A stretch of 30,804 nt of DNA. It comes from a virus. Under the pieces are notes generated by a model that ran no database searches, had not been told where the DNA came from, and saw nothing but the letters and a program-made list of their open reading frames with translations. Of this stretch, positions 5,570 through 29,738 are shown piece by piece. The first letter of the stretch is position 1. The number at the start of each line of letters is the position of its first letter. The position numbers were made by a program, and so were the translations under genes. The stretch covers positions 1 to 30,804 of IMG/VR virus record IMGVR_UViG_3300024348_000165; one strand, 5' to 3'.

Positions 5570-5814
5570 TCGCTTTTCCTTTTCCCTACGTGTATTCCAT
5601 ATAATGTTAATTCAAATTCAAAACTTTGCTTCTTTATATTATAGTCTATTGTAAAATCTGGCTCTATCTCAAACTTTGGGACATATCCAGAAAGTCTCAT
5701 TTCTGATATTAATAGTCTAACATACTCTCCTCTTAATCGGTCAATGGCAGAATCGTCATGGATGACTCCACTAAGGTTAAACCTTTTAATATTCTTATGA
5801 TGAAAGTTTTCCAC
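5488..5814 (-). CDS. Conserved phage protein of unknown function, 108 residues
   Basis: A small protein between helicase and primase. I do not know its function, though its middle (KRFNLSGVIHDDSA, then SEMRLSGYVPKFEIEP and FELTLYGIHVGK) resembles a family I recall next to replication genes in actinobacteriophages. I chose GTG at 5814 because the open frame upstream of it only antisense-shadows the helicase gene, and homolog-like sequence starts at VENFHHKNIKRF. There is no Shine-Dalgarno. Instead TATAAT lies exactly six bases before the GTG, consistent with a leaderless transcript. The 3' end overlaps the primase gene by 82 nt in another frame. A role at the replication fork is guilt by association only. 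Confidence 0.75.
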   Translation of the reverse strand: MENFHHKNIKRFNLSGVIHDDSAIDRLRGEYVRLLISEMRLSGYVPKFEIEPDFTIDYNIKKQSFEFELTLYGIHVGKRKSEWIEGLYGTRAIFTQKSKSKEFSQDQV

Positions 5815-5820
5815 ATAATT

Positions 5821-5826
5821 ATTATA
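5821..5826 (-). promoter_or_regulatory. -10 element, leaderless promoter before the 108-residue gene
   Basis: TATAAT followed by AATTAT and then GTG at 5814. It lies in the 13-nt gap after the helicase stop. There is no TG extension and no good -35, so it is weaker than the other sites. Confidence 0.45.
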
Positions 5827-5827
5827 C

Positions 5828-7048
5828 CTACTTATCTTCAAAATCTTTATATCTGTAATATCCCTTATCAAAGTCACACTGAACAAGAAAGTCTCCCATA
5901 AAACCATTACGGTTCTTTCTAAAAGCGCATTCAATGATATCACTATTATTACCACGGCCAAGGGCTAAGACCCAGTCAGCATCGTAAGCAATCTGTCTAG
6001 ACCATGCTGTTTGACCCAGTGTAGGTACCGTAGATAGATCGTTAACATCATCTGGTGTGGCAGATGAAATAGCAATAATAGGAACTTCTTCACCAATAGC
6101 CATTAGTTTAAGTTCTCTTGAAAGGTTCTTCATTCGTACCGTTTCATTATCTGACTTTTGATTAGGAGCCATCAACTGAAGATAGTCAACGATTACAAAG
6201 TCTGGCTTGTACTGATCAATCTTTCCACGGAGAACTGAGGGGTTAATCTCTCCACCTTGGTCATTTGAAATGATATGAAACTCTGGCTTTCCCTGAAGAT
6301 GCTTTGCATGCCAATCCTTTAACATATCTAGTTCTATCTCACCATTACTTAATTTTCTATGAGACCATCTGCCCTCACCCATAATAGTAAATACACGATT
6401 ACGAACCTCTGTCTCACTCATTTCAAGACTGATAACCAGTGGGCTACGACCCTGTTTCCAAGCCTGTACAGCGAAGTAGAGAGCCAACCAAGACTTTCCT
6501 ATACCTGGGTATGCCAGGAACACTCCTAACTGCCCTGGCATGATTCCAGAAGGTAGGTAGTTATCAAATCCTGGTAGGCCAGTCTTGATGCCAATGTGCC
6601 CAAGTTCTTGCTGCTTCTTTACATTTTCAAAGTAAGCGATTGCAGACTCTAGATCTGTAACATCAATATCACGAATTGCAGATGTATTCTTTTTAAGTTC
6701 TGAGGTTTTTGTAATTAAAGTTTCTAGTGCTTCTGTTCCATGGCCTCCTTGAACATCTGATGCTGCGGATCTTAGAATATCTTTTAGGCTATCGTTTAAG
6801 TATTCAACCTGAAGTTCTGCAAGATGATGCTTTGTAGAACCAACATCCTTAATTGGCTCAAAATCTCTAAACTTTTCTACAACTAGGGATGCTGGAGGGA
6901 CTGATGCATTTTGTTCTGAATAGACTCTGATAAAATTCCAAATATCTCCGTGGGTTCTTAGGAGAGAGTCAATATTGTTTTGCAATAGAACATGGACTTG
7001 CTTATCTTGAAGAACAGCCGAAAGTAGTTTTGCCTCTGTGTTATTCAC
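5828..7048 (-). CDS. Replicative DNA helicase, DnaB-like
   Basis: Hexameric 5'-3' replicative helicase of the DnaB/RecA-fold class, 406 residues. A helical N-terminal region of about 120 residues resembles the DnaB N-terminal domain, which interacts with primase. The motor has Walker A at 179-186 (AYPGIGKS), the Glu-containing ISLEMS at 206-211, Walker B FVIVDYLQL at 284-292, a conserved Ser/Thr-rich segment AISSATPDD at 326-334, and FRKNRNG at 376-382, which fits the arginine-finger beta-hairpin. The start is GTG at 7048, 8 nt inside the previous gene, with AAGGAG about 8 nt upstream. It is slightly shorter than bacterial DnaB, as is common for phage versions. Confidence 0.94.
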   Translation of the reverse strand: MNNTEAKLLSAVLQDKQVHVLLQNNIDSLLRTHGDIWNFIRVYSEQNASVPPASLVVEKFRDFEPIKDVGSTKHHLAELQVEYLNDSLKDILRSAASDVQGGHGTEALETLITKTSELKKNTSAIRDIDVTDLESAIAYFENVKKQQELGHIGIKTGLPGFDNYLPSGIMPGQLGVFLAYPGIGKSWLALYFAVQAWKQGRSPLVISLEMSETEVRNRVFTIMGEGRWSHRKLSNGEIELDMLKDWHAKHLQGKPEFHIISNDQGGEINPSVLRGKIDQYKPDFVIVDYLQLMAPNQKSDNETVRMKNLSRELKLMAIGEEVPIIAISSATPDDVNDLSTVPTLGQTAWSRQIAYDADWVLALGRGNNSDIIECAFRKNRNGFMGDFLVQCDFDKGYYRYKDFEDK

Positions 7049-7349
7049 TTAACCACTCCTTAGCCATTACTCTTCGCTCCATTCTATCTTTTTGATCTTG
7101 GTCTTTGTCTCTTTTTGATTGTAATATCTTTTCTGCATTATATGCGAAATGATTCCAACTTGGTGTCTGTGCAATTTTAAAATAGTACTCTAGTAAATCA
7201 TAGCATATAGAAATTCCATATGACTCAACAAGTGCATCGGATGCCCATTGCTCAACATTTAGATTCAGTGATGGCTTTGATTCGTACCTTGCTGTATGAT
7301 ACTTGCTGTATCTTGAAAGCAAAGCCATTCGGTCTTTGCGTTCTGCCAT
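7041..7349 (-). CDS. Hypothetical protein upstream of helicase, 102 residues
   Basis: I do not recognise a named family. The protein is basic and mostly helical, with several aromatic residues in the middle (SYGISICYDLLEYYFKIAQ, then SWNHFAYNAEKIL) and a highly charged, probably helical C-terminus (KRDKDQDQKDRMERRV). It starts by a TAATG overlap with the preceding gene and its end overlaps the GTG of the helicase by 8 nt, so helicase translation is probably coupled to it. A small protein fixed directly before a DnaB-type helicase could be a loader or accessory factor, but no loader motif is visible and this is only a positional guess. Confidence 0.8.
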   Translation of the reverse strand: MAERKDRMALLSRYSKYHTARYESKPSLNLNVEQWASDALVESYGISICYDLLEYYFKIAQTPSWNHFAYNAEKILQSKRDKDQDQKDRMERRVMAKEWLSE

Positions 7350-7555
7350 TAGGACTCTTCGGCCTCTGACTGTGCCTCTTTAATTTTTTCTGTAAGTTTA
7401 TCTTCTACAAACTTATAAACTCTTTCAAAAGCCTGATCTGTATTTTCACCGTCTCTCTTATTATCAATTACTCCAAGATCCAATCTTAGTGATTGAAAAT
7501 TTCCTAGGTTAAGTGTGTATCCTAATGTTACTGATACCTTTGTCTCTTCTATCAT
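7349..7555 (-). CDS. Hypothetical protein, 68 residues
   Basis: Function unknown. The first half has an alternating beta-strand pattern (KVSVTLGYTLNLGNFQSLRLDLGV), followed by an acidic helix (ERVYKFVEDKLTEKIKEAQ). I recall similar short proteins near replication genes of actinobacteriophages, none with an assigned role. It has a very strong Shine-Dalgarno (TTGGAGGGGTAATG) in the 15-nt gap after the helix-turn-helix gene, and its stop overlaps the next start as TAATG. It is therefore likely well translated. Confidence 0.8.
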   Translation of the reverse strand: MIEETKVSVTLGYTLNLGNFQSLRLDLGVIDNKRDGENTDQAFERVYKFVEDKLTEKIKEAQSEAEES

Positions 7556-7570
7556 TACCCCTCCAAGGGA

Positions 7571-8116
7571 CTAGTTTATAGATTCACTCCAAATTGGGAT
7601 AAATCTTCCATCTTCAGTCTTCGTATACATAAGTATACCATCGCCCATTCTGCGTGTCAACTCTTGCTTGCTGGGCGTAATATCATTTGTTATTAAATTA
7701 TCTTTTCGTGGTCTGCCAATGTGGTGTGTAGCAAGTATATCACGTATCTCTCTTACTTGGGATTCTGAGTAATAGGATCGTACTTGCCATCCTCTGTCCC
7801 CGCCTTTTTGTGATCCCGTAGGAAATGGAATGACTCCTCGTTTCATTAGTGATGGCATATACTTTTTATGACGATTAACTAAATCAGCAGTCTGTCCAAC
7901 TGTGTATGCTCTCTCTCTTTTGTTTTTAAAATCACTAACTAAGCAACTTTCAATTTGATCTTTAGTAATATTATAAACAGACATAATTCCATTAGATTTA
8001 TTAAGATGATAAACTCTAACAAGGTCTCCATTTAAAAACCAGACCTTCTTATTTCCTTGTATTACAGGGGACTGATTGTAGCCTTCGCTCTCAATTGTTC
8101 CTTTTTTAGTAGCCAT
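7571..8116 (-). CDS. MerR-like helix-turn-helix DNA-binding protein
   Basis: Probable sequence-specific DNA-binding regulator, 181 residues. Residues 70-130 look like a winged-helix MerR-type domain: AYTVGQTADLVNRHKKYM is the helix-turn-helix, PSLMKRGVIPFP leads to the wing, and YYSESQVREIRDIL is the following helix. GRPRKD at 134-139 is an AT-hook-like motif just after it. The N-terminal 60 residues (about GNKKVWFLNGDLVRVYHL) may form a separate small domain. The start has GAGGGA 4 nt upstream and lies 55 nt inside the zinc-ribbon gene. Its position at the join of tail and replication modules suggests it regulates phage transcription, which is inference. Confidence 0.85.
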   Translation of the reverse strand: MATKKGTIESEGYNQSPVIQGNKKVWFLNGDLVRVYHLNKSNGIMSVYNITKDQIESCLVSDFKNKRERAYTVGQTADLVNRHKKYMPSLMKRGVIPFPTGSQKGGDRGWQVRSYYSESQVREIRDILATHHIGRPRKDNLITNDITPSKQELTRRMGDGILMYTKTEDGRFIPIWSESIN

Positions 8117-8253
8117 CTTCCCTCTTTAGAATTCTCTGGTGGATTTAAAAATCTTCTATTCCCACATGTCAAACAATATACTTCTAGGTGATTAATAGAA
8201 CTAAAAGTTCTATCTATAAACATTCTTGATTTGCATTTTGAGCATGTCAACAT
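8062..8253 (-). CDS. Small zinc-ribbon protein, 63 residues
   Basis: Two CxxC knuckles (CSKC at residues 4-7 and CLTC about 20 residues later) form a rubredoxin-like or zinc-ribbon fold that should bind one zinc ion, followed by a basic tail (RWLLKKEQLRAK). The start overlaps the previous stop as TAATG and the last 55 nt overlap the helix-turn-helix gene. Small zinc ribbons of this kind usually bind nucleic acid or protein, but nothing here fixes the partner. The tight overlap with a DNA-binding protein suggests coordinated synthesis. Confidence 0.8.
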   Translation of the reverse strand: MLTCSKCKSRMFIDRTFSSINHLEVYCLTCGNRRFLNPPENSKEGRWLLKKEQLRAKATISPL

Positions 8254-8693
8254 TAAATAGGTATTCCAACTATAAGTAAATTTACACCTATTGTGGCCTC
8301 ACCAGTGGTATTAAATTTTACTACGCCTTCAACTTTTGTTGTGGTGACTGGCTTTAGAATAACCGATACATTTTTCCCTGCTGGAGTATTTGTAACATTT
8401 ACTGGTGTGGCAGTTACTATTGGAGCAAATTTAAAATCTGAAAAAGGATAAGAAAATGAAACCTCGTCACCAGCATTCTGGCTTGAGTTATTTGTTACAT
8501 CTACATATCCACCAATAATCTTAGCATCTGATGTTTTAACGCTTTGCTTTCCTGCGCCTTGAGTGTCAACAGTTACATACTTGTATGTTGAACTAGTTAC
8601 TGATGTGGAAAGTGTATTGATAGCATTAACTATCTGTGAAATTGTGGACACATCTAGAGGCTGGCCTCTTTCTGGAACATTTAATATAGCCAT
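8253..8693 (-). CDS. Probable minor tail or receptor-binding protein, 146 residues
   Basis: Last gene of the structural module. The N-terminus (MAILNVPERGQPLDVSTISQ, followed by a Ser/Thr-rich helix-like stretch) resembles attachment segments of phage tail proteins. The remainder is beta-rich, and FKFAPIVTATPVN followed by a final strand VNLLIVGIPI recalls H-type-lectin-like tail domains, suggesting carbohydrate binding at the tail tip. That domain assignment is tentative. No Shine-Dalgarno precedes the ATG. Instead an extended -10 (TGGTATAAT) ends exactly six bases before it, the pattern of a leaderless mRNA, so the gene may be transcribed separately from the tail operon. Confidence 0.75.
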   Translation of the reverse strand: MAILNVPERGQPLDVSTISQIVNAINTLSTSVTSSTYKYVTVDTQGAGKQSVKTSDAKIIGGYVDVTNNSSQNAGDEVSFSYPFSDFKFAPIVTATPVNVTNTPAGKNVSVILKPVTTTKVEGVVKFNTTGEATIGVNLLIVGIPI

Positions 8694-8699
8694 ATTATA

Positions 8700-8708
8700 A
8701 TTATACCA
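8700..8708 (-). promoter_or_regulatory. Extended -10, leaderless promoter before the 146-residue tail protein
   Basis: TGGTATAAT then six bases (TATAAT) then ATG at 8693, with no Shine-Dalgarno. It could drive the last tail gene and the zinc-ribbon and helix-turn-helix genes overlapping downstream. Confidence 0.6.
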
Positions 8709-8724
8709 CTAAAACGCCAGTGGT
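8705..8724 (-). other. Small inverted repeat at the end of the 148-residue gene
   Basis: ACCACT and AGTGGT flank an 8-base loop. The 3' arm on the minus strand includes the TG of the extended -10. It could be a weak operator or a minor RNA hairpin; it is too short to call a terminator. Confidence 0.35.
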
Positions 8725-9155
8725 GTGCTCTCAAATAAAGTTGCTACAGCATATCTCTTTTTTGGAAATGTTGGGACTTGAACAGCAATTTGAAAAGTTG
8801 CAGCACCTTGTTTTTTTATAACGGTATAGGTGTTTGTTAGTACAGATCCGTAGTATTTCCAGTACCCTGTCGGATCAGTATCCCATCTAATATAAATATC
8901 AAATTGTGACTTTAAGTCTTCAGTTGGGGACCAGACTGTAGTCATGATATTCCCATCTGTATTTGCAACGTAATAAGGAATATCATCTACCTGTGTGACC
9001 GCAACAGAGTGTGTAGGTGACCAATGTGAAAATCTGTTTCTATCTTCTGATACTATCCTATATCTAATTTTATAAGATGAAGTCTCTCCATTAAATTCTG
9101 GTAGGTCTTTTTTTAAAATAGTAACTTTTTTTATTCCAGGATCTGGAGTTGGCAT
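8709..9155 (-). CDS. Probable minor tail protein with fibronectin III-like fold, 148 residues
   Basis: A beta-rich protein. YKIRYRIVSEDRNRFSHWSP at residues 28-47 matches a fibronectin type III-like pattern often seen in minor tail proteins of actinobacteriophages, and the rest (DIYIRWDTDPTGYWKYYG, TYTVIKKQGAATFQIAVQVP) continues the strand pattern. It probably forms part of the tail tip or fibre. The start overlaps the preceding stop as TAATG with a weak AGGA ahead. Its TAG stop lies in a small inverted repeat just before the next gene's promoter. Confidence 0.75.
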   Translation of the reverse strand: MPTPDPGIKKVTILKKDLPEFNGETSSYKIRYRIVSEDRNRFSHWSPTHSVAVTQVDDIPYYVANTDGNIMTTVWSPTEDLKSQFDIYIRWDTDPTGYWKYYGSVLTNTYTVIKKQGAATFQIAVQVPTFPKKRYAVATLFESTPLAF

Positions 9156-10294
9156 TATCCTACGTCCATTCCAAATCTAAATTCAATAAAACTTGTTTTA
9201 TTTGCAGACTTAACAATTGTTTTTGAATCATTGTTTTTAATTACTGTATATCCAGTCAAACCGTATAGTGGATTAGAGATATCTTTATTCTCTAAGCGTA
9301 AAGCATCTAGACCTATATAAAACTGAGATGATGTTGTTAGTCCATCAATAATAGATGAATAAATCTTTACAGTGTTTACAGAAGACCAACTAAAACCAGC
9401 ACTACTCTTATACATATCCTGTAATTGTTTTGTTATAACAATATATCTATTATTTTCAAAATCATAAGAGTCTAAAATAACCTCAAACCTTGCCCACTCT
9501 CCTTCTCCAAATACGCTTGAAGAAGAAAACTCTACAAGAATCCTAACCTTGTCTGGGAAAATTGTTGGATCGGGATCTTTATTGATAACAGAAAAAGCCA
9601 ACTTTAATTCATCTGTTGGAGCATTCTGTGTAAAATTTAATGACTCAGAGCCAAGAAGTATCGGTGAGCCACTTTGTACATCTAAGTGCTCGCCATCAAG
9701 AACTAGTTCTGATGAATTTCCACGCATCATTATTATTCTATTTAAAAATCTACATCTTTCATATCTTGCAACTCTGTCTACGTCTGTAAATATTCTGTTA
9801 TCTGAATTAGTTTTAAATATAGGGTGTGTAACAGTTATGTGGTTATTTCCTTGATCATCTACTCCATCATTTCCAGCATCAAGAGGGCCAGCAACAATAG
9901 GTATTTCTCCAAGACCTGGACTAATAACCCAATTTTTTGTATCATCAAAAGCAAAAACTGTCTTGCTATCATTTGACTTTGCAGATGGGTTAGATCCTGC
10001 GGACCAAAGACCAATCTCAGTTATTTCGTATCTTTCTTCTGTTGGAAGTTCTGCTGTAAACACAACCTTTGTCTGATTGTTTTCTGTTACATAACCTCTA
10101 GATGTTATTGGTACACGAAACATTTCAAAGTCTAAAGATTGTTTTGTAGAAAATTCTGCCTTGTCCTCTGAAGAAAAATCATAGGTTAACTCTTTAGGCT
10201 GTGGACCACAGCCAATTGCTATGTATGAGGCGTACGCTGGGGCTTGCCCAATTAAATACTTGCCTATTATGCTTTTGCCACTATTAGTTATCAT
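9155..10294 (-). CDS. Minor tail / tail fibre protein, 379 residues
   Basis: Structural tail protein. The N-terminal 115 residues hold a familiar tail-fibre attachment pattern: YASYIAIGCGP (22-32), then VPITSRGYV, KVVFTAELPTEE and YEITEIGLWSAGSNP. The C-terminal part is beta-rich and may form a jelly-roll carbohydrate-binding-like domain (LKLAFSVINKDPD, ARFEVILDSYDF, VKIYSSIIDG, FYIGLDALRLEN). It probably sits on the hub and contacts the host surface. GAGGTG precedes the ATG and the start overlaps the previous stop (TAATG). Receptor specificity cannot be read from the sequence. Confidence 0.8.
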   Translation of the reverse strand: MITNSGKSIIGKYLIGQAPAYASYIAIGCGPQPKELTYDFSSEDKAEFSTKQSLDFEMFRVPITSRGYVTENNQTKVVFTAELPTEERYEITEIGLWSAGSNPSAKSNDSKTVFAFDDTKNWVISPGLGEIPIVAGPLDAGNDGVDDQGNNHITVTHPIFKTNSDNRIFTDVDRVARYERCRFLNRIIMMRGNSSELVLDGEHLDVQSGSPILLGSESLNFTQNAPTDELKLAFSVINKDPDPTIFPDKVRILVEFSSSSVFGEGEWARFEVILDSYDFENNRYIVITKQLQDMYKSSAGFSWSSVNTVKIYSSIIDGLTTSSQFYIGLDALRLENKDISNPLYGLTGYTVIKNNDSKTIVKSANKTSFIEFRFGMDVG

Positions 10295-10785
10295 TATTCA
10301 TTCACCTCATATATTGTACCATTAAATACCGTGCCAGTTGTCAGGATCTCTACATCTACTTGCTCGTTTTTGTCCATGTTTATTAAGTTTATTATCAAGT
10401 TTCCAGTGCTCTCTTCAATATATACGATCTCTCCATTTGGGCCTGTTCCTACATTAGGAACTCTATTAGAAAACTTAATTGGAAAGTTTTTAAATATTGT
10501 GTCCGATGTATCCTGAAGACCAAGGATATTTTTTGGGTTATACTGAAAGAATATACTGCTTATATTTTTTATTGGCTGATATAGAATATTCTGTCCATTG
10601 ATTAAATCATTTCTAGATATGTTGATTAACTCTGTTCCACCTATATCTTCAAAGATTAGGTCTGTCATTATTTCAATTGGTATTAACTCATCATTAAAAA
10701 CTTTTAAATCTGGGGTTGCAATTTTTACTGGATCTGCTGCTTTCGTAGTTTGAGAGTTTGGGACATTTGGGGTTGCGTCAGTCAT
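10294..10785 (-). CDS. Probable minor tail protein, 163 residues
   Basis: A small protein between the large hub-like protein and the fibre-like protein, linked to both by TAATG overlaps and preceded by GAGGTGGCATAATG. The N-terminal 40 residues are polar and Pro/Thr-rich, and the rest alternates hydrophobic and polar as in beta-sheet proteins (LIFEDIGGTELINISRNDL, FFQYNPKNILG, VDVEILTTGTVFNGTIY). I do not recognise a family. Its place in an unbroken run of tail genes argues for a tail-tip structural role. Confidence 0.75.
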   Translation of the reverse strand: MTDATPNVPNSQTTKAADPVKIATPDLKVFNDELIPIEIMTDLIFEDIGGTELINISRNDLINGQNILYQPIKNISSIFFQYNPKNILGLQDTSDTIFKNFPIKFSNRVPNVGTGPNGEIVYIEESTGNLIINLINMDKNEQVDVEILTTGTVFNGTIYEVNE

Positions 10786-13700
10786 TATGCCACCTCACTT
10801 AAAAATACAACCATGCTTGGACCCATAGAGTCTTTAGAGTAACTTATATTGTAAACAACAAATCTTTTATCTACTGATCCAACTTTGTCTATTCCATTTT
10901 CAATATAGTCTACTTTTACTATATCTCCTAGTTGTACTGTAGGCATAGAAAATACTTTAATACCCAATGATTTTCTGGGCTTCATAATTTTACCAATCAT
11001 CCACTCCATTAATTCATTTGCTGCATCTTGTGTCTGTACATACGGAGTCTCTAGATTAAACTCTTTAGTTCCATACGTCATTCGACTAAGTTTTATATCT
11101 TGGTATTCTTTTGCAACTTTGTTCGGATATGAAACCAAAAGACCATTTTTAAAATCTGGATTAGATGGATCGCTATTTTTTGAGAAGTAGTCATCAACAG
11201 TCAAAGAGTTTTGATTTTCTTGAGTAAAAGTTATTCCCTGAATTCTTAAATAGTTTCCCGATGATGCATCTAGGCTTAGGGCTTGGTCTGTTGCATTAAA
11301 GACCATAAACTCTGCTCCATAGGCTCCTGCTCTAAATCCTGAAACACTATACCCCTTTATTCTATTAAATGTTGGAGAAAGTTTTGCAAATATTGCTGGA
11401 TATGCTTTGTCATATTTAACATTAAAAGTTGATGCCTCTCTCATGATTGTTCCAAACTCATCAAAGTAAACATTGTACTGTGGTGGCGAAGACTGGTCTA
11501 CACCGCTTAGCATAGTTCCTTGGATTATTCCAGACAATGCGTATTTTCTAAATGATTCATTTGTATCTATTTCGTCTGGATCAAAGATAGAGTTAAATGG
11601 GGTATTTAATTCTGCTGATGTGTTTTTACCAGATGTAGTTTTACTATAGTTATTTGTTATAGCATATATATTTTCAAACATGATTCTTGATGAGCCACGA
11701 GTAAACAAAGCCATATTGTTGTATGTCGGTAGTGGACTTGTATCTTCAACAGTTGTAATTAATTTACCATTTATATACAGGAAAAACCTCTTACCATTTG
11801 GTATGTTTTCATACTCTACTGCAAGATCATAAACTGTAACAACCTGATCTGTAGTCATTCTGCTTTGACCAGTAAAATTTCCATTGTCTACAACAATTTG
11901 TCCTAAGCCTTCCCATAATTTTACAGGTATTGCCTCAGTGGTTCCAGACTTTTGCATTACTTTGTAAAAAATTAAATTGTTAACATTTGTATTTTCCGTA
12001 GTTGTGCTTACGTCTGTTGTGCCCAATGCAACAATTTCAAAGTAATATCCATTGTTATTGGATGGATTTAGCATTACCCCTATGCCACCAGAACCACCAG
12101 AAATACTGATATTTTTATCTGGCGTATCCCCTGGTATTGTGTAGTATGTTGTTGAGCCAACTGCTGTTTGCACTGTACCACTAGAGTTTTGCAGTCTACC
12201 AACGATTCTCATTCTTGCTCCAAAATGCTTAAACTTATCTGTAAGTGGCTTATAAACATATGAAATAAAATCAACTGGTGTCTCAGTTGTTGTAAAAGAT
12301 GGGCCACTCATCACAAGTGCTGAAGACTGTATTGATCCAGTTTCGGTAGATCGTTTTGACTTTATATCTGACTCACTAATATATTGAGAAGATAAGAAAT
12401 TTCTAATAATTCCATTCCTTGTTGTTTTTTTAGCAAGGGTATTATCTATTCCTGCTGGCCCAACCACAAGACTTAAATCTTTTGTCGCTTGACCTGGGTA
12501 CTCAAGTTGTGGTGTGTTAAACAAATACTTTGATTGCATAGTACATCCACGAACATTATTGTCGTCATACCAGTAAGGGTTTAGTCCTGCACTATGGCTT
12601 ACAATGGTTGTACCAAACTGCCCTCTTCCGTGCTTTGCAACTTTACCGTTCTTAAGTTTTATAACACCCAAAACTTCTTCATAGTTTGGCTCTGCATAAA
12701 TTCTAACTCTTCCAGTTGGATAAATTTTACCGTTAAAAGAAATCTCAGAAAAATACTTTTGATATTCCTGAACATTATTGATCCAAACATTTCCAACTCC
12801 AGAGATGTTGTATTCTACTGCGTCAAACCTAATAATTTCTCCACTTGAATAAAAGTAACCACTATATCTTGTTATCCAGTACACTCCTTCTCCAAGATCT
12901 AGTATGTTATTTTTAATTTGATTATTTGCAACGTAAGGAATAACATCTGATAAATCGGAGTTTAAAGGTATTGCAGATAACATATAACTTGATCCGTTTC
13001 CAACTTCATTATTTATAGACTTTGTATTTTCTGTTCCCCCTACTTCCCAAAGCAACACTGGCTTATATATCCAGGTCTTATCGTTATCAATCATTGATGC
13101 TTGTTTAATTGAGCCGTAAGATCTTTGTATGTATCTTGAGGTATAGTTTATCTTTCCACCATTATATACGTTATTATCTTGAGAAGAGATTTCAATTATG
13201 TTTGCCAGTTTAGTTGCTGTTAGACTATTGCCGTCATTGTCAATTGTTTTATTTTTGTAGACTGATGTGCTTTCTAAATCTACTGATCCCCTTAGGGTTA
13301 TGTCAGTGCTTCTATCAGACTCTGATGGTAACATATACTTTTTACTCATCATAACAAAATTATTGTACTCATCTAAGAACATTGCTGTTTGTGTTGAAAC
13401 AGCAATATCTTGTAGAATCTCAGCAACAGATTTATCTGGAGGAATAAAAAAGAAAGGAATTTCTAATTCAGTTTCTTCAGGAACTCTTTTGAACATATAG
13501 TTTGAAAAACCAATAGAATCAAGAAGTATGGATACTGCAGTGCTTGTTGACACATTTGTTAAAAGCATTTGTGGGGCAGTAAGTGAGTCAAAATAAAAAT
13601 ATAGGTCTTTTAAATCTAAGTCTACACTTTTATCTTTATTGTTTAACTTAGGGAAACCACTACTATACATTGTTTTTATTGGAACATAGTAATCATAACC

Positions 13701-15128: not shown

Positions 15129-15808
15129 TAGACCTCTTCCAGAGTTAAACTAACTTTCCAAAGATCTATAGTGGCTCCACGCTTTACTATGCTGTAATCA
15201 AAATTTGAGAAAAAAACTTCTATAAGTTCGTTATATTGTTGCTTATGAAGATAAGCATTATCGTTTTTACCAAAATTGCTGTACTTGTCATAAGCAAGAA
15301 AAACCCAAAAAGATCCTTTATGGTTTTTATACCAATCAAGAAGTTCTACTCCTCCTGCTCCACCATCAGTTGTATAGTTTGCTTGAGCCATGTTTGGAAG
15401 TCCAGCAGTATTTGAATAGTCAGATACTCCACTTGAACTAAAATCTGGATTTAAAGCAAATGCTCTTGATGGAAGATTGTCCCAACTCATAGAAATATTT
15501 ATCTTGTCTGCAATGTGATATGACCTCATGCGCCCATTGATCATTCTTTCACGTTTTTCAATTCTATCGTGGCTAATATCAATTGGAGACCTGTTGTCGT
15601 CTGAGAGTATTAAAAATGTATTTAGCATATCCTGATTTGTTTCTGAGCCAGGGTTTGCACCAATCTCATAGCCAATAGGAACGTAAACCTTTTTATCTGG
15701 ATCTTCTGCTGTTGGGGAAGTAACCAATGTGCCTGGGTTATCAGAAAATAGCAGAGCCTGTGGTCTGTTATATTTCTTTCTTCCAGCCATATAGTTTAGT
15801 GTTGCCAT
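15128..15808 (-). CDS. Distal tail-type minor tail protein, 226 residues
   Basis: The first gene after the tape measure, where siphoviruses usually encode the distal tail (Dit-like) protein that joins tube to hub. It is Asn/Asp/Tyr-rich and beta-leaning, with a conserved-looking segment INGRMRSYHIADKINISMSW around residues 90-109 and the C-terminal EVFFSNFDYSIVKRGATIDLWKVSLTLEEV, which resembles the end of a tail-tube-type beta fold. It begins MATLNYMAGRKKYNRPQAL. AAGGGGA precedes the ATG and the start overlaps the tape measure stop as TAATG. The structural role is well supported by position; the Dit equivalence is inference. Confidence 0.8.
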   Translation of the reverse strand: MATLNYMAGRKKYNRPQALLFSDNPGTLVTSPTAEDPDKKVYVPIGYEIGANPGSETNQDMLNTFLILSDDNRSPIDISHDRIEKRERMINGRMRSYHIADKINISMSWDNLPSRAFALNPDFSSSGVSDYSNTAGLPNMAQANYTTDGGAGGVELLDWYKNHKGSFWVFLAYDKYSNFGKNDNAYLHKQQYNELIEVFFSNFDYSIVKRGATIDLWKVSLTLEEV

Positions 15809-18800: not shown

Positions 18801-21800
18801 TAGCAGTCTTTCTTACTGTTTCTGGTAGTGACATAAAGTATTCCCAGTTTGCAGTAATACCCTTCATGGCATCTTCACTAAGTCCTGAATTTTCTAACTG
18901 AATTGCTTTTGTTAATGGTTCTGGAACTGCTTCAATTCCCTCTAGTTGCTTTTGAAGTGCCTGAAGTCTTTCTGTTGCTGTTTTAACATCATTTCCAAGA
19001 TAGACGTTAATATCAAAATCTTTTTGATCCATTGTTTGAAGTTGTACTAGAGTATCATTAATTCTATCCATTTCAGCAGTTGGAAGTTTGCTTATTGCTA
19101 CCGTTAGATTTTTCTTAAGGTTTTTATTTTTTAATCCGCCAAGGTTGTTAACAAGGAGTGCAATCTTGTCTGCTCCATGTGTTTTTACTGCAATATCTAA
19201 AACTCCTTCTAGTTTCTTTTCATCACCAGAGAATGCCTCTAATAAATCTGTCATAACTAGCGGATTGACTTGCCCAGACGCTACAATTGTATTTACTATT
19301 ACTTCAAGTTCTTTACTCTCCAGGTCTGCAGACTTGCTAAGCATGTCATCAGTAAAGGCTTCCATTGCCGTACCCTTATATTTTAATTTAACAGATTCCT
19401 TGAGTGAGTCAAAAAATGCGCCTTCAACTGCTGCTCTTTCTTTTGCAACTGCAAATAAAGCAAGTTGATCATCTAGTGTTTCTGCAATTTTTTCTCTAAT
19501 CTTTTTAGCACCTTCTGATTGTTCGTCTTGTGCTTTTTTAATACTAATATCAATTGCTTCTTGTTTTGATTTTTCTGTAGTGATTGCTCTTTGTGCTTGA
19601 AGTTCTTTAATCTTAGTCTCTGCTTGTAAATTATAAGAGTCTAGTTGCGCTTGTGCTGCGCCCATGTTGTTTGCATTAGAGGCAGCGCCAAAAGATGCAA
19701 CCTTCTCTGATTTAGTTTGTGTAAAGGCTTCTGCAAAGTTGTATCCTTTGCCTTCGGCAGACCCATTAAGTATTTTACCTGTTAACCATCCTCCTGGATT
19801 ACTGTATTCTGCTACTTTAGAAATCCCAGTATTTATGCTACTGTTGTCGCTCTTTATAGAGCCTGCAAGTTGGTCTGTTGATATTTTAGAAATTTCTGAT
19901 TGATCATCTATTAAGTTAAGTCTTACTTGAAGTGGATCTTTAAGTAGATCTTCTCCGTATGGACCAATAAGTCTGTTTAACTCAGCATCAACTCTTGGCT
20001 GTAGTGTTGTATCTCCAAACTTAATTGCCATCTGTCTTGCAACATCTGATGCCTCAACCGAAGTCATAACCCCATCTGATACAGCAAGGGCTAAGTTTGC
20101 AGCAAACTGTTGTGATGCTGGGCCTTCTCCTGCAATTTTAATGTTTTCTGCAAATCCATCTGCCATGGATTTTCCAACATCGCTTTCTAAGAATGTTGTA
20201 CCAAACTGTTGGCCCTTGCGATCATAGTTAGTTGTATACCTATCAGACTTTGCCTCTTGTCTTCTACGATCCATAATTTCACTGGCTCCTACTTTACCAG
20301 TTACCGCTCCAATACTCTGAAGAGTTTTTGAAGTCATTTGTGTTTTATTTGCAAACTCTGTTTGTGCTTTTGCTGCTTTCTCTGCAGCCTTATCTAGAAG
20401 ATATAGACCTCCTGCTGCGCCAGCAACTGCTCCTGCTGCGATTCCTAACGGTCCAAGTCCAGCAAGCATTGGAGCAAATTGTGCTATTGTTGCTGCCCCT
20501 CCTAGGGCTGCTGTAACTGCTGGTGGGGCACCTGCCATGCCTGCGACCATTGCTGCAGTGCCAAGACCACCAGATACCTTACCAGATACACGGCCAACGG
20601 CTTCTCTTCTTTTTCCTCTTCTTTCTTGTGTTGCAAGTTTTCTTGATCTACGGTCTTTTGCTCTTTGATCTCTTTGGTTTAGTGGACCTATAAAACCATC
20701 TTCTCCTGGAAGTGGGCCGTCTATGAGATCTCCAGTTTGAGATCCCCCAGAATTAAATCTTGCTGCTTCTTCTTGTGCATTTAGGACTGCAGCATTTGCT
20801 TCTTGCTCTTTAGCGTTTGCCAGTCTTTCTGCTGCTAAAGCAGTTTCTTGTGCTGATATAGATCTTTGATGTTCTGTACCTGCTATACCAGAGTTTATTC
20901 TCTCTTGTGTTATTAAATTCCCCGAATTTCCAGAGATAGCGTCTGCGCTAGATATTGTTCCATCACGGACATCAGTTAAAACACTTGTTGTTTCTTTTGT
21001 TAATTTTAATTGTTCTCCTGTTGCATCTGCAGATGTCTGTGTATTTTCAGCAATAGATTTAGAAGCATTAATTGTAAGATTTAAAGACTCTGCCTGTGCA
21101 CTTCTATCTTCTGGAACAATAACCTTGCCAGATGCACCAAGTTTTCTTCTTTGTCTATCTTGAGATTTTAGTATTTGTCTTTGATCACGCATTCCTGGAG
21201 TATTAATGTCATCATAGAACGCCTTGTTTCCAAGATCCATCTTTTCCATTTTTGCTTGTGTTTCTGCTGCTGACGGAACTGCTGCATCGCCAAGTCTAGA
21301 AGATTGCGCTTCTACCTGTCCTTCTTTAGCCTTCATGCCATCAATTAATCCATCGCCAACTTCTTCTCCAGCAGAGTGTGCCTTCTTTGATGGTGATGCT
21401 GCATCTGTTCCAGCCTTAGATCTTACACCATCAACTGCTGCATCTCCAAGTGCTGCACCTTCAGACATTGTTCCAAGTAGTCTGGAGTCTTCTGGTCTTG
21501 CTTCATGATTCATTATTTTTGCGTTGCTTGCCTTTGGTCCTAAAGTTCCTGCCCCATTTGCCTTAAGCATTGCATTAACTTCTTCAAAATCATCACCAAG
21601 ACTTATTCTTATTGCAGTTATACTTTGTTTTGCTTGGTCAACTATTTTTGCAAACTCTGGAGAAAGTGTGTGAAGTTCTTCAGTTATTCCTGATTCAATT
21701 GTTTTAAATATTGCATCATCAAAAATTTCTGGTGCTGGTTTTGCAGCATTATCTGCATTCCATTTATCTAATTTTTCTATTAATAGTCGATCATAGGTTT

Positions 21801-24663
21801 CAGCCTCTGCCTTTAATTTATCAAAGTCTCCGCCCATCATTGTGGTCATGGCTCGCCACTTTTCTGCGCCAGTCTTTTCAAAGTCTGCTTGGAAATCCCT
21901 ACCTAAACTTCCTGCTCCGTTTGCACTTTCATAAGATGCAGACTTTCCTGGTGTTGACATTGCATTATTTAGTTTGCCCTTTAGCATCATTGCATGAGCA
22001 TCTGCAACCTTAAGTTCTGGCATGTCTCTACCCTGATCACCATAAAACTTTTTAATAAGTTCTACTTGATTTCTAGCCTGTGGAATTAGATTTAGACTAT
22101 CTCCAGAAGTTGCATCTAGACCCCTGGTCTGACCTACGTGAGAAAATTCTGGTCTTTGTAGTTGATCAAATGCTGGATGGTATGCACCCATTCGACTTGA
22201 TTGTTTTTCTGGATCAAACTTCTTACCTACTGCAGTTAATCCTTCTTGCGTTATTTTACCAAATTGTGTTTTTACATCCTGTAAAATTTGTTCAAACTCA
22301 GAAGAAATAAGTTTTCTAATATTCTCTAATGCAGTTTTAGATGTGTCTGCCATATCTATACCTACACGTTTTGCATAAGCAATTAGTTGAGAGTCATCAA
22401 AGTTTGCAATTCTTTCTCTTTCTTTTTGAATAAAGCCAGATGTGCCACCACCGACAACGCCATCAGCATGTCCTGGTATCTTGTCTGCTATTATTGCTTG
22501 AATTAAAGCACGATGCTTATCTGATTGCTTTGCTGGAATTACAGACTCTCCTGGAGTCAACATTGCTGCTACGGTGTCTTCGTTTCCAGTTCCTGGAACG
22601 CTAAGGATTCCTTCTGAGAATTTCTTTATACCGCCAACTGCACCTCTTGGTCCTGGGGCAGAATTAAATAGTCCTGGGGCACTTGATGCTAATGCTAAGG
22701 CCTGAGATCCAGCATTACCGTATGAAATTGCTAATGCATCTACTGCTGCTTTTTCAACATTAAATGTACTAATAAGTTGCTGATGAGATGTGTGTAATGC
22801 CTGAGTTTGTGCAAGATTGTCAATTTCCTGTTGAGTTAAATAATCAAATCCACCACCAAGAACTTGGTTCTGTCCATTAAGTTTTGCTATTCCTCCACGA
22901 AGCATTGCAAAGAATTTAATTAAATTTGCTGCTCCGTTAGCAACAACACCAAATGTCATTAATGCAATTGGGGCAAGACCTGCAAGAACTGCTACCACAA
23001 TTGCAATTGCTTTTTTTGATCCTTCGCTAAAGTTGTTAAACTTTTCTAATACCTTTCCAAAAAACGCTACAACTGGAGTTAGTGCTTCTAAGAATGCTTT
23101 ACCTACTGGGATTAGTTGAATCTTAAGTTGCTCTATTGTTTTTTGGAATTTAACGCCAACTGCATTTTCAACTTTACCTAATTCTCTTTCAGATAAAATT
23201 GCTAACTCTTCAACAGAAGCCCCTGCTAATCCAAGTGCTCTTGATGCTTGAGAAGTATCTTTCGTTACGTTTTGGAATAGTGTAGACAAACGAGCAAACT
23301 GGAACTTACCAAACATCTGCTCAATTGCTCTAGCACGGTTAAGTGGATCAAGAGTATCAAGCGCTTGGGCAAAACCAATAACTGTATTCTTTAGGTCTCC
23401 AGAATTATTATTTACAATTCCTTTTACATTAATACCAAAGTCTGCAAGAAATGCACTTGCTTTTGCAGATGGATTAATTAAAGATGCAAGTCCAGACTTA
23501 AGTGCGTTAGCACCTTCTGAAGCATTTATGCCACCCTCTTTCATTGCAGTCATGAAGAATGCAAGATCTTCTACATTTCCACCAAGTTGTTTTATAACTG
23601 GACCAGCCTTTGGAATTGCTATAGTCAAGTCCTCAATTGAAAGAACGGTTTGGTTTTCTACTGCGTTAAGAAAGTTTATCTTTTTTGCTAGATCTTCTGA
23701 TGAAATTCCAAATGCGTTTTGAAGAGATATAGTTGTTTCAAGTGCCTGCTGTTGCTCAACCTGACCTAGTACTGCTAACTTGGTTGCTGCAGATACTTGA
23801 GCATTTAAAGCGCTTCCAGTTAAACCCATTGCTGCTGCTCGTGCAGCCAAGTCTACAGTATCTTTTGCTGCGATTCCATATTTTGTAAATTCAGAACTAA
23901 GTCTTTTTATGTCAGCAATCGCTTTATTTGTTGCATCGCCACTTGTAAACATATCTCCGTAAACTCTTGTAAACTTTACTGTTGCCTCTTCCATCTCTCT
24001 AAATGTTTTTGCTGCATAAGAGCCAAGCATAGAAAGTGGAACAGTTAGACCAACCATCAACTGACGGCCAGCCCACTGTGTATTTTTACCAAAGTTAAGT
24101 AGTTGTGTAGATCCCTGCTTCAATAGTTGATTAAGCAACTGTTGTCTTTGTGCAGCCATCTGAACCCTTGTGGCGTAGTCTGCATACTTGCCATTAACTG
24201 TTTGAAGGTGCTTTGGAACGACCTGCAAAACCTTTACAAAATCGCCTTGGGCATTTGTTAACTGAACATATTGAGACTGTAAAGATTTGACTCTGTCTTT
24301 ACGAGCACGGTTAATAATCTCACGCTCTTGTGCAAACATTCGTGTAAATGTTTTGGTATTTGCCGTTGCTGCTGCTGCCGTATATCTTACGTACTCTCGC
24401 ATTGAGAGTTGATTTTTTTCAAGAGCATCAGTAAAAGATCTGGTGCTTGTTCTGATTTCCTTTTGGGAAGCAACGAACTTTCCAGTAGCATTTATAGACT
24501 GCATCAACTGAGCATTGAGGCCCTTTTGGGCATTTGCTGCAGCGATATTTCCTTGTGTTAGGGATTGATTGAAACGACTGAGACCAGCCTGAAGTTGACG
24601 TAAGTTAGCGAGGGCTTGTTTGGTATCAAAATTAATACCAATATTAGCATTTACATCAGACAA
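15808..24663 (-). CDS. Tail tape measure protein, 2951 residues
   Basis: Sets tail length and is ejected through the tube at infection. The N-terminus is the classic tape measure domain (WAGRQLMVGLTVPLSMLGSY near residue 210, preceded by long helices). Hydrophobic segments lie at about 549-588 and 1355-1425 and may insert in the host membrane. Two LTPGE motifs (MLTPGESVIP near 700, AMLTPGEFVM near 2890) and a Ser-Pro-Ser-Lys/Gly motif near 1085 (SPSKKAHSAGEEVGDGLIDG) are recurrent in tape measures. A coiled coil runs from about 2350 to 2670 and includes a 25-residue tandem repeat. By the usual estimate of about 0.15 nm per residue the tail would approach 440 nm. The start is TTG at 24663 with GAGGGTG about 8 nt upstream; no in-frame ATG or GTG fits. 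No lytic domain was recognised. Confidence 0.97.
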   Translation of the reverse strand: MSDVNANIGINFDTKQALANLRQLQAGLSRFNQSLTQGNIAAANAQKGLNAQLMQSINATGKFVASQKEIRTSTRSFTDALEKNQLSMREYVRYTAAAATANTKTFTRMFAQEREIINRARKDRVKSLQSQYVQLTNAQGDFVKVLQVVPKHLQTVNGKYADYATRVQMAAQRQQLLNQLLKQGSTQLLNFGKNTQWAGRQLMVGLTVPLSMLGSYAAKTFREMEEATVKFTRVYGDMFTSGDATNKAIADIKRLSSEFTKYGIAAKDTVDLAARAAAMGLTGSALNAQVSAATKLAVLGQVEQQQALETTISLQNAFGISSEDLAKKINFLNAVENQTVLSIEDLTIAIPKAGPVIKQLGGNVEDLAFFMTAMKEGGINASEGANALKSGLASLINPSAKASAFLADFGINVKGIVNNNSGDLKNTVIGFAQALDTLDPLNRARAIEQMFGKFQFARLSTLFQNVTKDTSQASRALGLAGASVEELAILSERELGKVENAVGVKFQKTIEQLKIQLIPVGKAFLEALTPVVAFFGKVLEKFNNFSEGSKKAIAIVVAVLAGLAPIALMTFGVVANGAANLIKFFAMLRGGIAKLNGQNQVLGGGFDYLTQQEIDNLAQTQALHTSHQQLISTFNVEKAAVDALAISYGNAGSQALALASSAPGLFNSAPGPRGAVGGIKKFSEGILSVPGTGNEDTVAAMLTPGESVIPAKQSDKHRALIQAIIADKIPGHADGVVGGGTSGFIQKERERIANFDDSQLIAYAKRVGIDMADTSKTALENIRKLISSEFEQILQDVKTQFGKITQEGLTAVGKKFDPEKQSSRMGAYHPAFDQLQRPEFSHVGQTRGLDATSGDSLNLIPQARNQVELIKKFYGDQGRDMPELKVADAHAMMLKGKLNNAMSTPGKSASYESANGAGSLGRDFQADFEKTGAEKWRAMTTMMGGDFDKLKAEAETYDRLLIEKLDKWNADNAAKPAPEIFDDAIFKTIESGITEELHTLSPEFAKIVDQAKQSITAIRISLGDDFEEVNAMLKANGAGTLGPKASNAKIMNHEARPEDSRLLGTMSEGAALGDAAVDGVRSKAGTDAASPSKKAHSAGEEVGDGLIDGMKAKEGQVEAQSSRLGDAAVPSAAETQAKMEKMDLGNKAFYDDINTPGMRDQRQILKSQDRQRRKLGASGKVIVPEDRSAQAESLNLTINASKSIAENTQTSADATGEQLKLTKETTSVLTDVRDGTISSADAISGNSGNLITQERINSGIAGTEHQRSISAQETALAAERLANAKEQEANAAVLNAQEEAARFNSGGSQTGDLIDGPLPGEDGFIGPLNQRDQRAKDRRSRKLATQERRGKRREAVGRVSGKVSGGLGTAAMVAGMAGAPPAVTAALGGAATIAQFAPMLAGLGPLGIAAGAVAGAAGGLYLLDKAAEKAAKAQTEFANKTQMTSKTLQSIGAVTGKVGASEIMDRRRQEAKSDRYTTNYDRKGQQFGTTFLESDVGKSMADGFAENIKIAGEGPASQQFAANLALAVSDGVMTSVEASDVARQMAIKFGDTTLQPRVDAELNRLIGPYGEDLLKDPLQVRLNLIDDQSEISKISTDQLAGSIKSDNSSINTGISKVAEYSNPGGWLTGKILNGSAEGKGYNFAEAFTQTKSEKVASFGAASNANNMGAAQAQLDSYNLQAETKIKELQAQRAITTEKSKQEAIDISIKKAQDEQSEGAKKIREKIAETLDDQLALFAVAKERAAVEGAFFDSLKESVKLKYKGTAMEAFTDDMLSKSADLESKELEVIVNTIVASGQVNPLVMTDLLEAFSGDEKKLEGVLDIAVKTHGADKIALLVNNLGGLKNKNLKKNLTVAISKLPTAEMDRINDTLVQLQTMDQKDFDINVYLGNDVKTATERLQALQKQLEGIEAVPEPLTKAIQLENSGLSEDAMKGITANWEYFMSLPETVRKTAIQTYVTATTTVTDDAVKTRIAKKIAATGGASTVADYYNSPAGRAAVVNELAMEATKPQYSPTNKGPKDGGPVGGKDGAGSNPLDFLDSLAMRIKNVRQGAFDATKPLASMMAAFTSKKAQADASKMFDIFDGLQQRMMKLGVPKEFRDMIAGMSAEDFTAFSSLPKGKNMFTYNETDSKGKKLPKTKQNIKGITKEGRAVMQTYNEAQAGEYQLIQQETLQTIKDQNVAFNQLIATGMSTSDALKVVENSAIAAAIASGSVGAQGSAEFQKFTDDIKIANSELQKQAVINTALGKIEDSQYQEKAIGFAKAFYDAGLSIEQIDEVLSDPQMAAMLVEDLKDGKIEAGAIKDYLDTIPKRIEISVEQKLAKKDFLGAAAPGFEIVDKMFQIQESLIRHAGKATTKPIQDQIEKQEILIRALQTEEKVRTSLKGILDDYTVSYEQLLDRAKEYQDTISKEQRDLEVNSEYGSRVIEKLTEDINDLNKEIEINPEWGTRAIDALQKESGELAHDLDVMNNAAEKINEKYDKQAEALEKVRAINENILEQQSQQLDLADAITSGDISAAAKAAQAMRETDASQYADGVSSALEQSRNNAIDGLRNSKGQSQKQIQERQYEIAQKIYAMENDPARVAKVQKIKDLQDAIYAKEELREAKLLAIRTIEDEMYLIQQEIAKDEGLLDKENKKLTDLNTKLSDAEKSIQNQVDNIRIMGKDKDGWDLAKTKLEAYNLAIDKTVNTHMAALTKATAAVEADWESINGWLNSWLGSDGSVINLETIHTITYVYSNTGGGNPGSGSDGDAYTAPEETAESEAEAEAFDATVAWLDAAQAALDAILAEGSGAGGQRSDDNYDIRQAQIAAARKELAAAQAAYNATLPVGDANATGGSGGASGGKFEMQFEANGGLINPMKFAMGGFAKGTDTVPAMLTPGEFVMSRYAVNSYGINGMKAINNGQGVGESVYNYSVSVNVASDANPDEIARVVMKQIKQVDSQRIKGNRL
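17300..17420 (-). repeat. Two-copy 25-residue repeat within tape measure coiled coil
   Basis: Around residues 2415-2455 the segment NSEYGSRVIEKL is followed 25 residues later by NPEWGTRAIDAL, each leading into a charged helix. The period is about 75 nt. The copies have diverged at the DNA level, so the duplication is old. Confidence 0.6.
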
Positions 24664-24684
24664 TCATTACACCCTCTTTACTTT

Positions 24685-24999
24685 TTATTTTGTAGTGCTA
24701 ATTAGTCCTGTTGTATCAGAAAGTTGCATTCCTGAAGCAGCATCGATAACTTTGTACACTGTAGGAAGATCAATTAGATCTTCAAGTTCTTTTCTTTTTT
24801 CTGATAGTTCTGGAACATACTGCTTAAGAGCAATCTGCACACAGTCTAGCAAAACATCCATAGACTTATCGTTATCGTCTGCTACCTTTTCCAAACCTGT
24901 AAAGGTTTTCATAAATGGCTTAAGCAATGATATTTTTAGTGGACTAGCAGTAAATTTTGTGCCGTCCATAAGTACAATCTCTTGACCTGTTGTAGTCAT
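24685..24999 (-). CDS. Short tail assembly chaperone, paralog of the upstream gene, 104 residues
   Basis: Sits directly before the tape measure gene, the position of the tail assembly chaperone (gpG-type) that binds the tape measure during tail assembly. Its whole length matches the N-terminal ~95 residues of the preceding protein: both have L-(M/L)-DG near the start, then SP(L/I)KI, an alpha-helix with conserved F, LKQY/MKQY-x-P, a DL-x-T-(V/I)-Y motif and an ID/LD-x-(A/S)-(S/A)-G ending. It lacks the C-terminal extension of the long paralog. GGAGG lies 7 nt before the ATG, and an extended -10 sits 25 nt upstream, so it may have its own promoter. Chaperone identity rests on position and length and is not certain. 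Confidence 0.8.
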   Translation of the reverse strand: MTTTGQEIVLMDGTKFTASPLKISLLKPFMKTFTGLEKVADDNDKSMDVLLDCVQIALKQYVPELSEKRKELEDLIDLPTVYKVIDAASGMQLSDTTGLISTTK

Positions 25000-25023
25000 T
25001 ATTCCTCCAATGTGAATTAATTA

Positions 25024-25032
25024 ATTATACCA
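25024..25032 (-). promoter_or_regulatory. Extended -10 promoter for the short chaperone / tape measure genes
   Basis: TGGTATAAT in the 48-nt gap after the long chaperone, with a weak -35-like TTAAAA 16 nt upstream at the stop codon. The transcript would start near 25017 with a short leader containing GGAGG. Confidence 0.6.
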
Positions 25033-25047
25033 TAGAGGAGGCTATTT

Positions 25048-25731
25048 TTAAGAAAGTTTTTCGTAATCTAAGCCTAAACCAATACCAAATCCAGCGTTTT
25101 TTGCATTCTGTCCTTGAAGTGCAACTATGTCATTTGCATCAGATGCCTGACCTTTGCTATATACTCTAGCCTTTAGTTCTTCCCAAGCATTTTTCTTATT
25201 TGAATTCTTGTCAAGGTCTACACCTTGGATTGCTGCTAGAAATTTTTTCTCTTCATAATTTAGGTCTCTGCTTATGGACAAGGTTGCCATAAGTTCTGGC
25301 ATAGACAAAGATTTCTCTAATTCGTCATAATCTTTCCAGATACCAAGTAAGAAAACCTCAGACTCTAGTTTTGCCAGATCAAGACTTTCCCAAGTTGATC
25401 CACTTTCTACTGCTTGAGACTTTACTGTTTCTTCTGACTTGTCATTTATTTTTATTCCCGCAGAAATATCTAGTATTTGATATATTGTATTTAAGTCTAC
25501 GTGCTCTTCAAAAACCTCAGCACTTACTGCAATGTCTGGTCTGTATTGCTTCATACAAATTCTTGCACAATTAGATAGTGCAGAGATTGCTTCAAAATCT
25601 CCGTTAGCAGACTTAACGCTTTCAAACTCATTCATAAGTTGTCTTAAATACTTAATCTTAATTGGTGATACCTCAAACTCTTGACCATCTAATAGTTTAA
25701 GATTCTTTATTTTGTATATTTCTGTTGCCAT
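25048..25731 (-). CDS. Long tail assembly chaperone, 227 residues
   Basis: Likely equivalent of the gpGT-type chaperone. The N-terminal domain (LKLLDGQEFEVSPIKIKYL to DISAGIKIND) is shared with the next gene. The C-terminal extension is helical and includes ISRDLNYEEKKFLAAIQGVD, which fits the T domain that recruits the tail tube protein. The frame is open back to 25776, but an earlier start would lie in the terminator hairpin. I chose ATG at 25731 (MATEIYKIKN), which has no Shine-Dalgarno but has TATACT, preceded by TGG, exactly six bases upstream, pointing to a leaderless mRNA. No slippery heptamer leading to a second frame was found. It may be controlled separately from the more abundant tail tube protein. 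Confidence 0.82.
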   Translation of the reverse strand: MATEIYKIKNLKLLDGQEFEVSPIKIKYLRQLMNEFESVKSANGDFEAISALSNCARICMKQYRPDIAVSAEVFEEHVDLNTIYQILDISAGIKINDKSEETVKSQAVESGSTWESLDLAKLESEVFLLGIWKDYDELEKSLSMPELMATLSISRDLNYEEKKFLAAIQGVDLDKNSNKKNAWEELKARVYSKGQASDANDIVALQGQNAKNAGFGIGLGLDYEKLS

Positions 25732-25737
25732 CTTATA

Positions 25738-25746
25738 AGTATACCA
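25738..25746 (-). promoter_or_regulatory. Extended -10, leaderless promoter for the long chaperone gene
   Basis: TGGTATACT abuts the terminator T-run. The hexamer ends exactly six bases before ATG 25731, so the first transcribed base would be at or next to the A of ATG. The gene has no Shine-Dalgarno. Confidence 0.6.
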
Positions 25747-29729: not shown

Positions 29730-29738
29730 ATTATATCA
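29730..29738 (-). promoter_or_regulatory. Extended -10 promoter for EPV-repeat gene
   Basis: TGATATAAT on the minus strand lies just after the capsid terminator. Transcription would begin near 29723, leaving a leader of about 11 nt that just contains AAGGAGG. No good -35 is visible. Confidence 0.55.

Follow-up and report, generated by a model that had tools for sequence, protein, structure and literature searches.

Putative leaderless promoter-start elements in a Stanwilliamsviridae-related phage family, and a tail assembly chaperone pair with two predicted modes of initiation

Introduction

In leaderless genes of the Actinobacteria and Deinococcus-Thermus, the start codon is always ATG or GTG and follows a TANNNT hexamer at a distance of about 12 bp. 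These genes have no Shine-Dalgarno (SD) sequence and occur alongside SD-led genes (PMC3160421; PMC4633059). In Mycobacterium smegmatis, the rule that leaderless starts take ATG or GTG, not TTG or CTG, was established with reporters and selection (PMC4633059). In phages, SigA-like or putative promoters whose predicted +1 coincides with the first base of a start codon have been described for cluster O mycobacteriophages (PL1, PR2 and PL2; PMC4351075) and for Adephagia (P90; PMC11373665). Leaderless initiation is thus a known mechanism that has already been predicted for a few mycobacteriophage genes, and in the open-access literature, with subscription papers mostly outside this coverage, we found no genome-scale account of leaderless genes in phages. 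Here, we analysed a virus contig of 30.8 kb (IMG/VR record IMGVR_UViG_3300024348_000165, positions 1 to 30,804, hereafter the window), in which three genes carry a candidate leaderless promoter-start element. One of these genes encodes a tail assembly chaperone (TAC).

In lambda (PMC5009743) and in the Streptomyces phages Yaboi, Moab and BillNye, the tail assembly chaperones consist of a G part and a G-T form and are located between the genes for the major tail protein and the tape measure protein. Lambda requires gpG and gpGT at a ratio near 30:1, which is set by a -1 frameshift (PMC5009743). For the chaperones of T4-like phages, the title of a recent study names a mechanism other than frameshifting (Vladimirov et al. 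2022).

Results

The window is a partial sequence with a G+C content of about 37%, and its likely genes are all located on the minus strand. It contains three TATAMT-N6-RTG sites, all at starts of genes without an SD sequence, as described in the initial annotation: TATACT-TATAAG-ATG at 25743-25729 (gene start at 25731), TATAAT-TATAAT-ATG at 8705-8691 (8693) and TATAAT-AATTAT-GTG at 5826-5812 (5814). One ATG-containing form of the element is TGGTATAATTATAAT-ATG. The TG noted upstream of the first two sites is present as TGG at both, while the third site has AGG and no TG. The accompanying observation that a more distant -10 goes together with a good SD sequence also holds for each of the three genes named. 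Gene 29712, from the family that ranks first among the leadered families of the relatives, has a TATAAT hexamer at 29730..29735 (minus strand) at a spacing of 17 and the SD sequence AAGGAGG, gene 24999 has TATAAT at a spacing of 24 and GGAGG, and gene 26463 has TATACT about 52 nucleotides (nt) upstream and AGAGG.

In the window alone, the frequency of the bare pattern was within the range of chance, with three occurrences against 1.57 expected and 23 of 100 shuffles reaching three. A comparison of the three hits among 26 likely gene starts with the TATAMT rate at other upstream positions gave a P-value of about 1.7e-4, which is crude since the comparison rate rests on very few hits. Because the count in the window was within chance, the spacing claim was tested in a set of relatives consisting of nine related large phage contigs and the window (981 kb; open reading frames, ORFs, of at least 50 amino acids, aa).

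A scan of these sequences for TATAMT revealed 123 cases of an ATG-ORF at a spacing of 6 and 39 at a spacing of 7, against a mean of 11.7 at background spacings (0-4 and 10-40), while permuted hexamers gave a flat distribution without a spacing peak. This corresponds to roughly 14 candidate leaderless starts per 100 kb above background. Since the genomes are related, Poisson P-values overstate the independence of these counts, and the numbers of protein families provide the fair version of the comparison. The genes at spacing 6 represent 45 distinct families, whereas any other spacing except 7 has 3-16, and 14 of the 45 families are found in at least three genomes, compared to 0-4 elsewhere. 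When every hexamer was compared without prior selection at 41 positions upstream of 7596 ATG-ORFs, TATAAT at spacing 6 ranked first and its TGG extension second, both above the SD hexamer AAGGAG. Pooling five isolates, of which one is a Rhodococcus phage and the other four are Streptomyces phages, likewise gave a peak at spacing 6 (24 versus 2.5).

The sequences around the peak are distinctive in several respects. A TG precedes the hexamer in 62-69% of the cases at spacings 6-7, compared to 28% in the background, and the base before the ATG is a T in 63% compared to 33%, which fits a pyrimidine/purine start site. SD sequences are nearly absent at spacings 6-13 and common from 14 upward, although the shortest spacings leave little room for them. 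At spacing 6, ATG (123 versus 11.7) and GTG (9 versus 2.1) are enriched, while TTG (5 versus 5.0) and CTG (3 versus 2.0) are not; an earlier pooled count of GTG and TTG was dropped as the enrichment resolved to GTG alone. The promoter-start geometry, its conservation and the start-codon rule are thus evident in the sequences themselves. With the first T of the -10 about 12 bp upstream, no SD sequence and an ATG or GTG start, the last as a statistical property over the relatives, the elements resemble the leaderless genes of actinobacteria.

A smaller TATAMT excess was observed at spacing 9, with four families found in at least three genomes, possibly representing start sites 3 nt before the codon. 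It consists partly of real orthologues, belonging to the 8693 family, and partly of alternative registers. In addition, a family of 134-aa proteins without a Pfam match (G001:C1:35567 (+) and its counterparts) has TATAMT at a spacing of 7 in 9 of 9 related contigs.

As the bacterial start site is located about 7 nt after the -10, a spacing of 6 makes the first base of the start codon the predicted +1; the same argument has been applied to bacterial genomes (PMC3160421). We consider it very likely that genes in this phage family are initiated in a leaderless manner from SigA-type extended -10 promoters. Owing to the promoter position, transcription would begin with the first base of the start codon itself, giving a messenger RNA without a leader on which the 70S ribosome would start directly at the 5' RTG, as in actinobacteria. 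From the geometry, we infer both the position of the transcript 5' end and the 70S initiation.

The phage family would apply such starts to a recurring set of genes beside ordinary leadered genes with SD sequences. The recurrent leaderless families include the chaperone TAC1, the 8693 type, a 2OG-Fe(II) oxygenase, a methyltransferase, a ferritin-like protein and others, and the recurrent leadered families include the second chaperone TAC2, the 29712 type, a CHAP-domain protein and ribonucleotide reductase. The suggestion in the initial annotation that different gene groups use different modes of initiation holds in part: it describes the two chaperone paralogues and the recurrent families, but the split is not absolute, since 13 family pairs connect both sets. 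The further suggestion that this split lets the phage respond to a changing ribosome state during infection gained no support from the sequences.

The TAC1 gene (25048..25731, minus strand) encodes a fused G-T chaperone of 227 aa, in which the G part (residues 1-107, phrog_10504) and the T part (residues 131-203, phrog_10474) are encoded in one frame. Its relatives in Streptomyces phages are annotated as tail assembly chaperones. The predicted leaderless promoter-start (25729..25743, minus strand) consists of TATACT at 25743-25738, preceded by TGG, a discriminator of 6 nt and the ATG at 25731. It is located downstream of the intrinsic terminator of the major tail protein unit (25762..25787, minus strand; fold z -4.6), which ends about 18 nt before the -10, and inspection by eye showed hairpins of different sequence in the corresponding position of relatives and isolates. 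Because a strong terminator precedes it, TAC1 is probably shielded from transcription of the major tail protein gene. Among the orthologues, 30 of 31 distinct upstream sequences have the hexamer at a spacing of 6-7 and one at 9 (L059), and none contains an SD sequence. The hexamer is TATACT in nearly all of them, the exceptions being TAAAAT in L072, L077 and L078, and TAGAAT in L059.

TAC2 (24685..24999, minus strand) is a G-only paralogue of 104 aa that matches phrog_10504 but not phrog_10474 and is about 30-40% identical to TAC1. It has a leadered start of its own, with a TG-extended TATAAT (25024..25029, minus strand) 24 nt before the ATG and a conserved SD sequence, GGAGG (25004..25008, minus strand). 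Its orthologues have TATAAT at spacings of 24-28 and GGAGG or AGGAGG as the SD sequence; in four cases the script had picked a start before the SD sequence. A hairpin pairing CCUCC with the SD sequence of TAC2 was also considered and dropped, as its z of -1.85 is weak and its upstream half is not kept in relatives.

The TAC1 reading frame is uninterrupted in 81 of 81 loci, including the window, and TAC2 directly follows TAC1 in 76 of the 77 loci with room for it. The exception is L052 (6690-7800), where genes are inserted between the two, the first of which is preceded by TATACT and a possible SD sequence (AAGGAG). The fusion and the duplication are thus visible in the sequences. TAC1 differs from frameshift-dependent chaperones, in which the T part lies in another frame reached through a slippery heptamer, and no slippery site common to the TAC1 genes checked was identified. 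In the isolates used for comparison, the G gene terminates and the T part is encoded in a different frame, and in Yaboi the two are annotated as a joined frameshifted gene. A CCCAAAT heptamer is located at codon 102 in the four examined Loccivirinae phages, BillNye, Limpid, Moab and Muntaha, while the script found no such heptamer in Yaboi, Samisti12 or Coruscant. The G gene of the isolates has a leader whose SD sequence is purine-rich or clear, and the -10 is located further upstream. In a phylogenetic tree, TAC1 and TAC2 formed two groups that were jointly separated from the isolates and from the contig L234. Support was high for the joint group (99/98) and for TAC2 (99/97) and only 87/86 for TAC1; the tree program warns that long branches meet, which makes the root uncertain.

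Gene 8693 (8253..8693, minus strand) encodes a tail-region protein of 146 aa with 143 relatives in viral contigs and no match in PHROG, Pfam or phage records. Its putative leaderless promoter-start (TATAAT-N6-ATG, 8691..8705, minus strand) is suggested by the sequence and by the upstream sequences of its orthologues. Of 56 distinct upstream sequences, 37 have the hexamer at a spacing of 6-7 and none of these 37 has an SD sequence, while all of the six at a spacing of 15-16 have one. The 11 cases that the script placed in class 8-11 have spacings of 5 or 9, and an SD sequence is present in two of these cases; two sequences were not called. The gap of 15 nt between the preceding stop codon and the ATG contains nothing but TGG-TATAAT-N6 (8691-8711, minus strand), a complete extended -10 in a minimal space.

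Gene 5814 (5488..5814, minus strand) is a small conserved gene of 108 aa (phrog_17515) between the helicase and primase genes. Its candidate element (TATAAT-N6-GTG, 5812..5826, minus strand), with the GTG at 5814, follows directly behind the helicase stop codon and is the weakest of the three. TATAAT is present in 24 of 25 distinct upstream sequences of its orthologues, at a spacing of 5 in most and 6-7 in seven, the script having chosen a later start in three. In the Streptomyces relatives, the gene starts at the helicase stop codon and no -10 was seen. A TTG start at 5961 was rejected for this gene, as it overlaps the helicase gene and the relatives share an RTG behind the TATAAT.

The tail module of the window contains the major tail protein, the two chaperone paralogues and a tape-measure-like protein of 2951 aa; the window also encodes further tail-region proteins, and its replication genes encode a DnaB-type helicase, primase, SSB, a DnaE polymerase and RecA. 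The local gene order, both in the tail module and in the series helicase, phrog_17515 gene, primase and SSB, is shared with the Stanwilliamsviridae-like large siphophages. At the protein level, the phage is closest to isolated Streptomyces phages of Stanwilliamsviridae (identity of 55% for DnaE and about 40% each for the chaperone and the phrog_17515 gene), and the TAC1 and 5814 proteins have their closest isolate matches in Streptomyces and Rhodococcus phages. Because DnaE is 55% identical and phage records contained no nucleotide match to bases 1-25000 of the window, the phage probably falls outside Stanwilliamsviridae proper. The window itself yielded no host marker, but WhiB, an actinobacterial marker (PMC6802176, PMC10202952), is present in 15 of 19 related contigs, and an actinobacterial host is likely, judging from these relatives. 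A scan of genome contigs for the host gave a single match, a phage-like contig in a metagenome-assembled genome binned as a cyanobacterium; the bin may be mixed, since the contig resembles a phage contig. This contig, L234 (CAINGU010000031.1, 6001 onward), has a leadered G gene beside a tape-measure-like gene, with the T part in another frame, and thus the same layout as the isolates, with a leader and an SD sequence.

Discussion

The proposal in the initial annotation that genes with leaderless transcription of the actinobacterial type occur alongside SD-led genes is strongly supported, at the sequence level, by the spacing peak, the extended -10, the T before the ATG, the RTG rule, the orthologues and the actinobacterial relatives. 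Several points weigh against it. The transcript 5' ends are predictions from sequence. With a spacing of 5, as in some of the 5814 family, the usual start site would fall just within the codon, and with a spacing of 9, as in some of the 8693 family, 2-3 nt ahead of it. No -35 elements are evident at the predicted leaderless promoters, and several of the genomes behind the excess counts are related to one another. Ribosomes that re-initiate after the helicase stop codon could also translate genes at sites like 5814, which may apply to 5814 itself because it has no TG and directly follows that stop.

Chance would be the simplest explanation, as TATAMT-N6-RTG could be frequent in AT-rich DNA and the three sites meaningless, and the bare count in the window agrees with it. 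However, the spacing-6 peak in the relatives, the flat controls, the family counts and the conservation among orthologues refute chance for the phage group and make it scarcely credible as a general explanation, although a lone site such as 5814 could partly be due to it. The hexamers could instead be promoters whose -10 is incidental to translation, with ribosomes reaching these genes through coupling or re-initiation on transcripts of an upstream operon. At both 8693 and 5814, the end of the preceding gene is no more than about 15 nt away, and the Streptomyces relatives start the 5814 gene at the helicase stop, but TAC1 is located behind a strong terminator, and neither a start-codon rule nor an exact spacing is expected from coupling, which we regard as quite improbable. 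It is also unlikely, though less so, that a phage-encoded sigma factor or a promoter of the T4-late type, rather than the SigA of the host, sets the start. The lack of a clear -35 would agree with such a factor, and phages of "Ca. Planktophila" encode their own (PMC10202952), while the consensus TGG-TATAMT is that of a SigA-like extended -10. The T4-late variant was rejected, as TATAAA was not enriched in the hexamer scan.

For the chaperones, we tentatively propose that duplication, together with two promoters and two modes of initiation, replaced the programmed frameshift, and that the leaderless TATACT promoter of GT is probably the weaker one. The leaderless promoter at 25731 would express the G-T fusion, while the G-only paralogue at 24999 would keep a leader and SD sequence of the ancestral kind. 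G made from the TATAAT promoter with an SD sequence and GT from the leaderless TATACT would together set the G:GT ratio; we infer that it is set by these two promoters and modes of initiation. In M. smegmatis, leaderless reporters had a lower predicted transcript production and a translation similar to that of one leadered control (PMC7148126), and leaderless and leadered translation were comparable in another study (PMC4633059). Any difference between G and GT may therefore originate in transcript production no less than in translation. A competing, rather doubtful explanation is that TAC2 has diverged to another role and is not a functional G, and that TAC1 still makes its own short form. 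The divergence between the paralogues allows for this, and the function of TAC2 is assigned by homology and position only. However, TAC2 adjoins TAC1 in all but one of the loci with room for it, both groups are stable, and the TAC1 genes checked share no slippery site through which a short form could be made. In the same open-access literature, no case of a chaperone frameshift replaced by duplication was found. If duplication did replace it, the pair would be a naturally occurring substitute for a programmed frameshift that is widely conserved.

Since the Streptomyces phages share the peak, leaderless translation by phages becomes testable genome-wide in laboratory isolates, and orthologues of one gene with and without a leader are now available for comparison. 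Gene callers that expect an SD sequence may mis-call starts in such phages.

Compared to the leaderless genes of the Actinobacteria and Deinococcus-Thermus, the elements described here are found in AT-rich phage genomes, have a nearly full TATAAT or TATACT and a TG extension, and are known from sequence alone. While cluster O mycobacteriophages and Adephagia have few such promoters per phage, the peak observed here extends over dozens of families, and unlike in those phages, it is found in Stanwilliamsviridae-related phages with orthologues that switch between the two modes. In lambda, Yaboi, Moab and BillNye, GT is made by a programmed -1 frameshift from one leadered gene, as annotated for Yaboi and deduced from the frames for the others, whereas the phages studied here have a continuous, putatively leaderless GT gene and a second, leadered G gene. 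The new part of the finding is this arrangement of a predicted leaderless G-T fused chaperone followed by a leadered, SD-bearing G-only paralogue.

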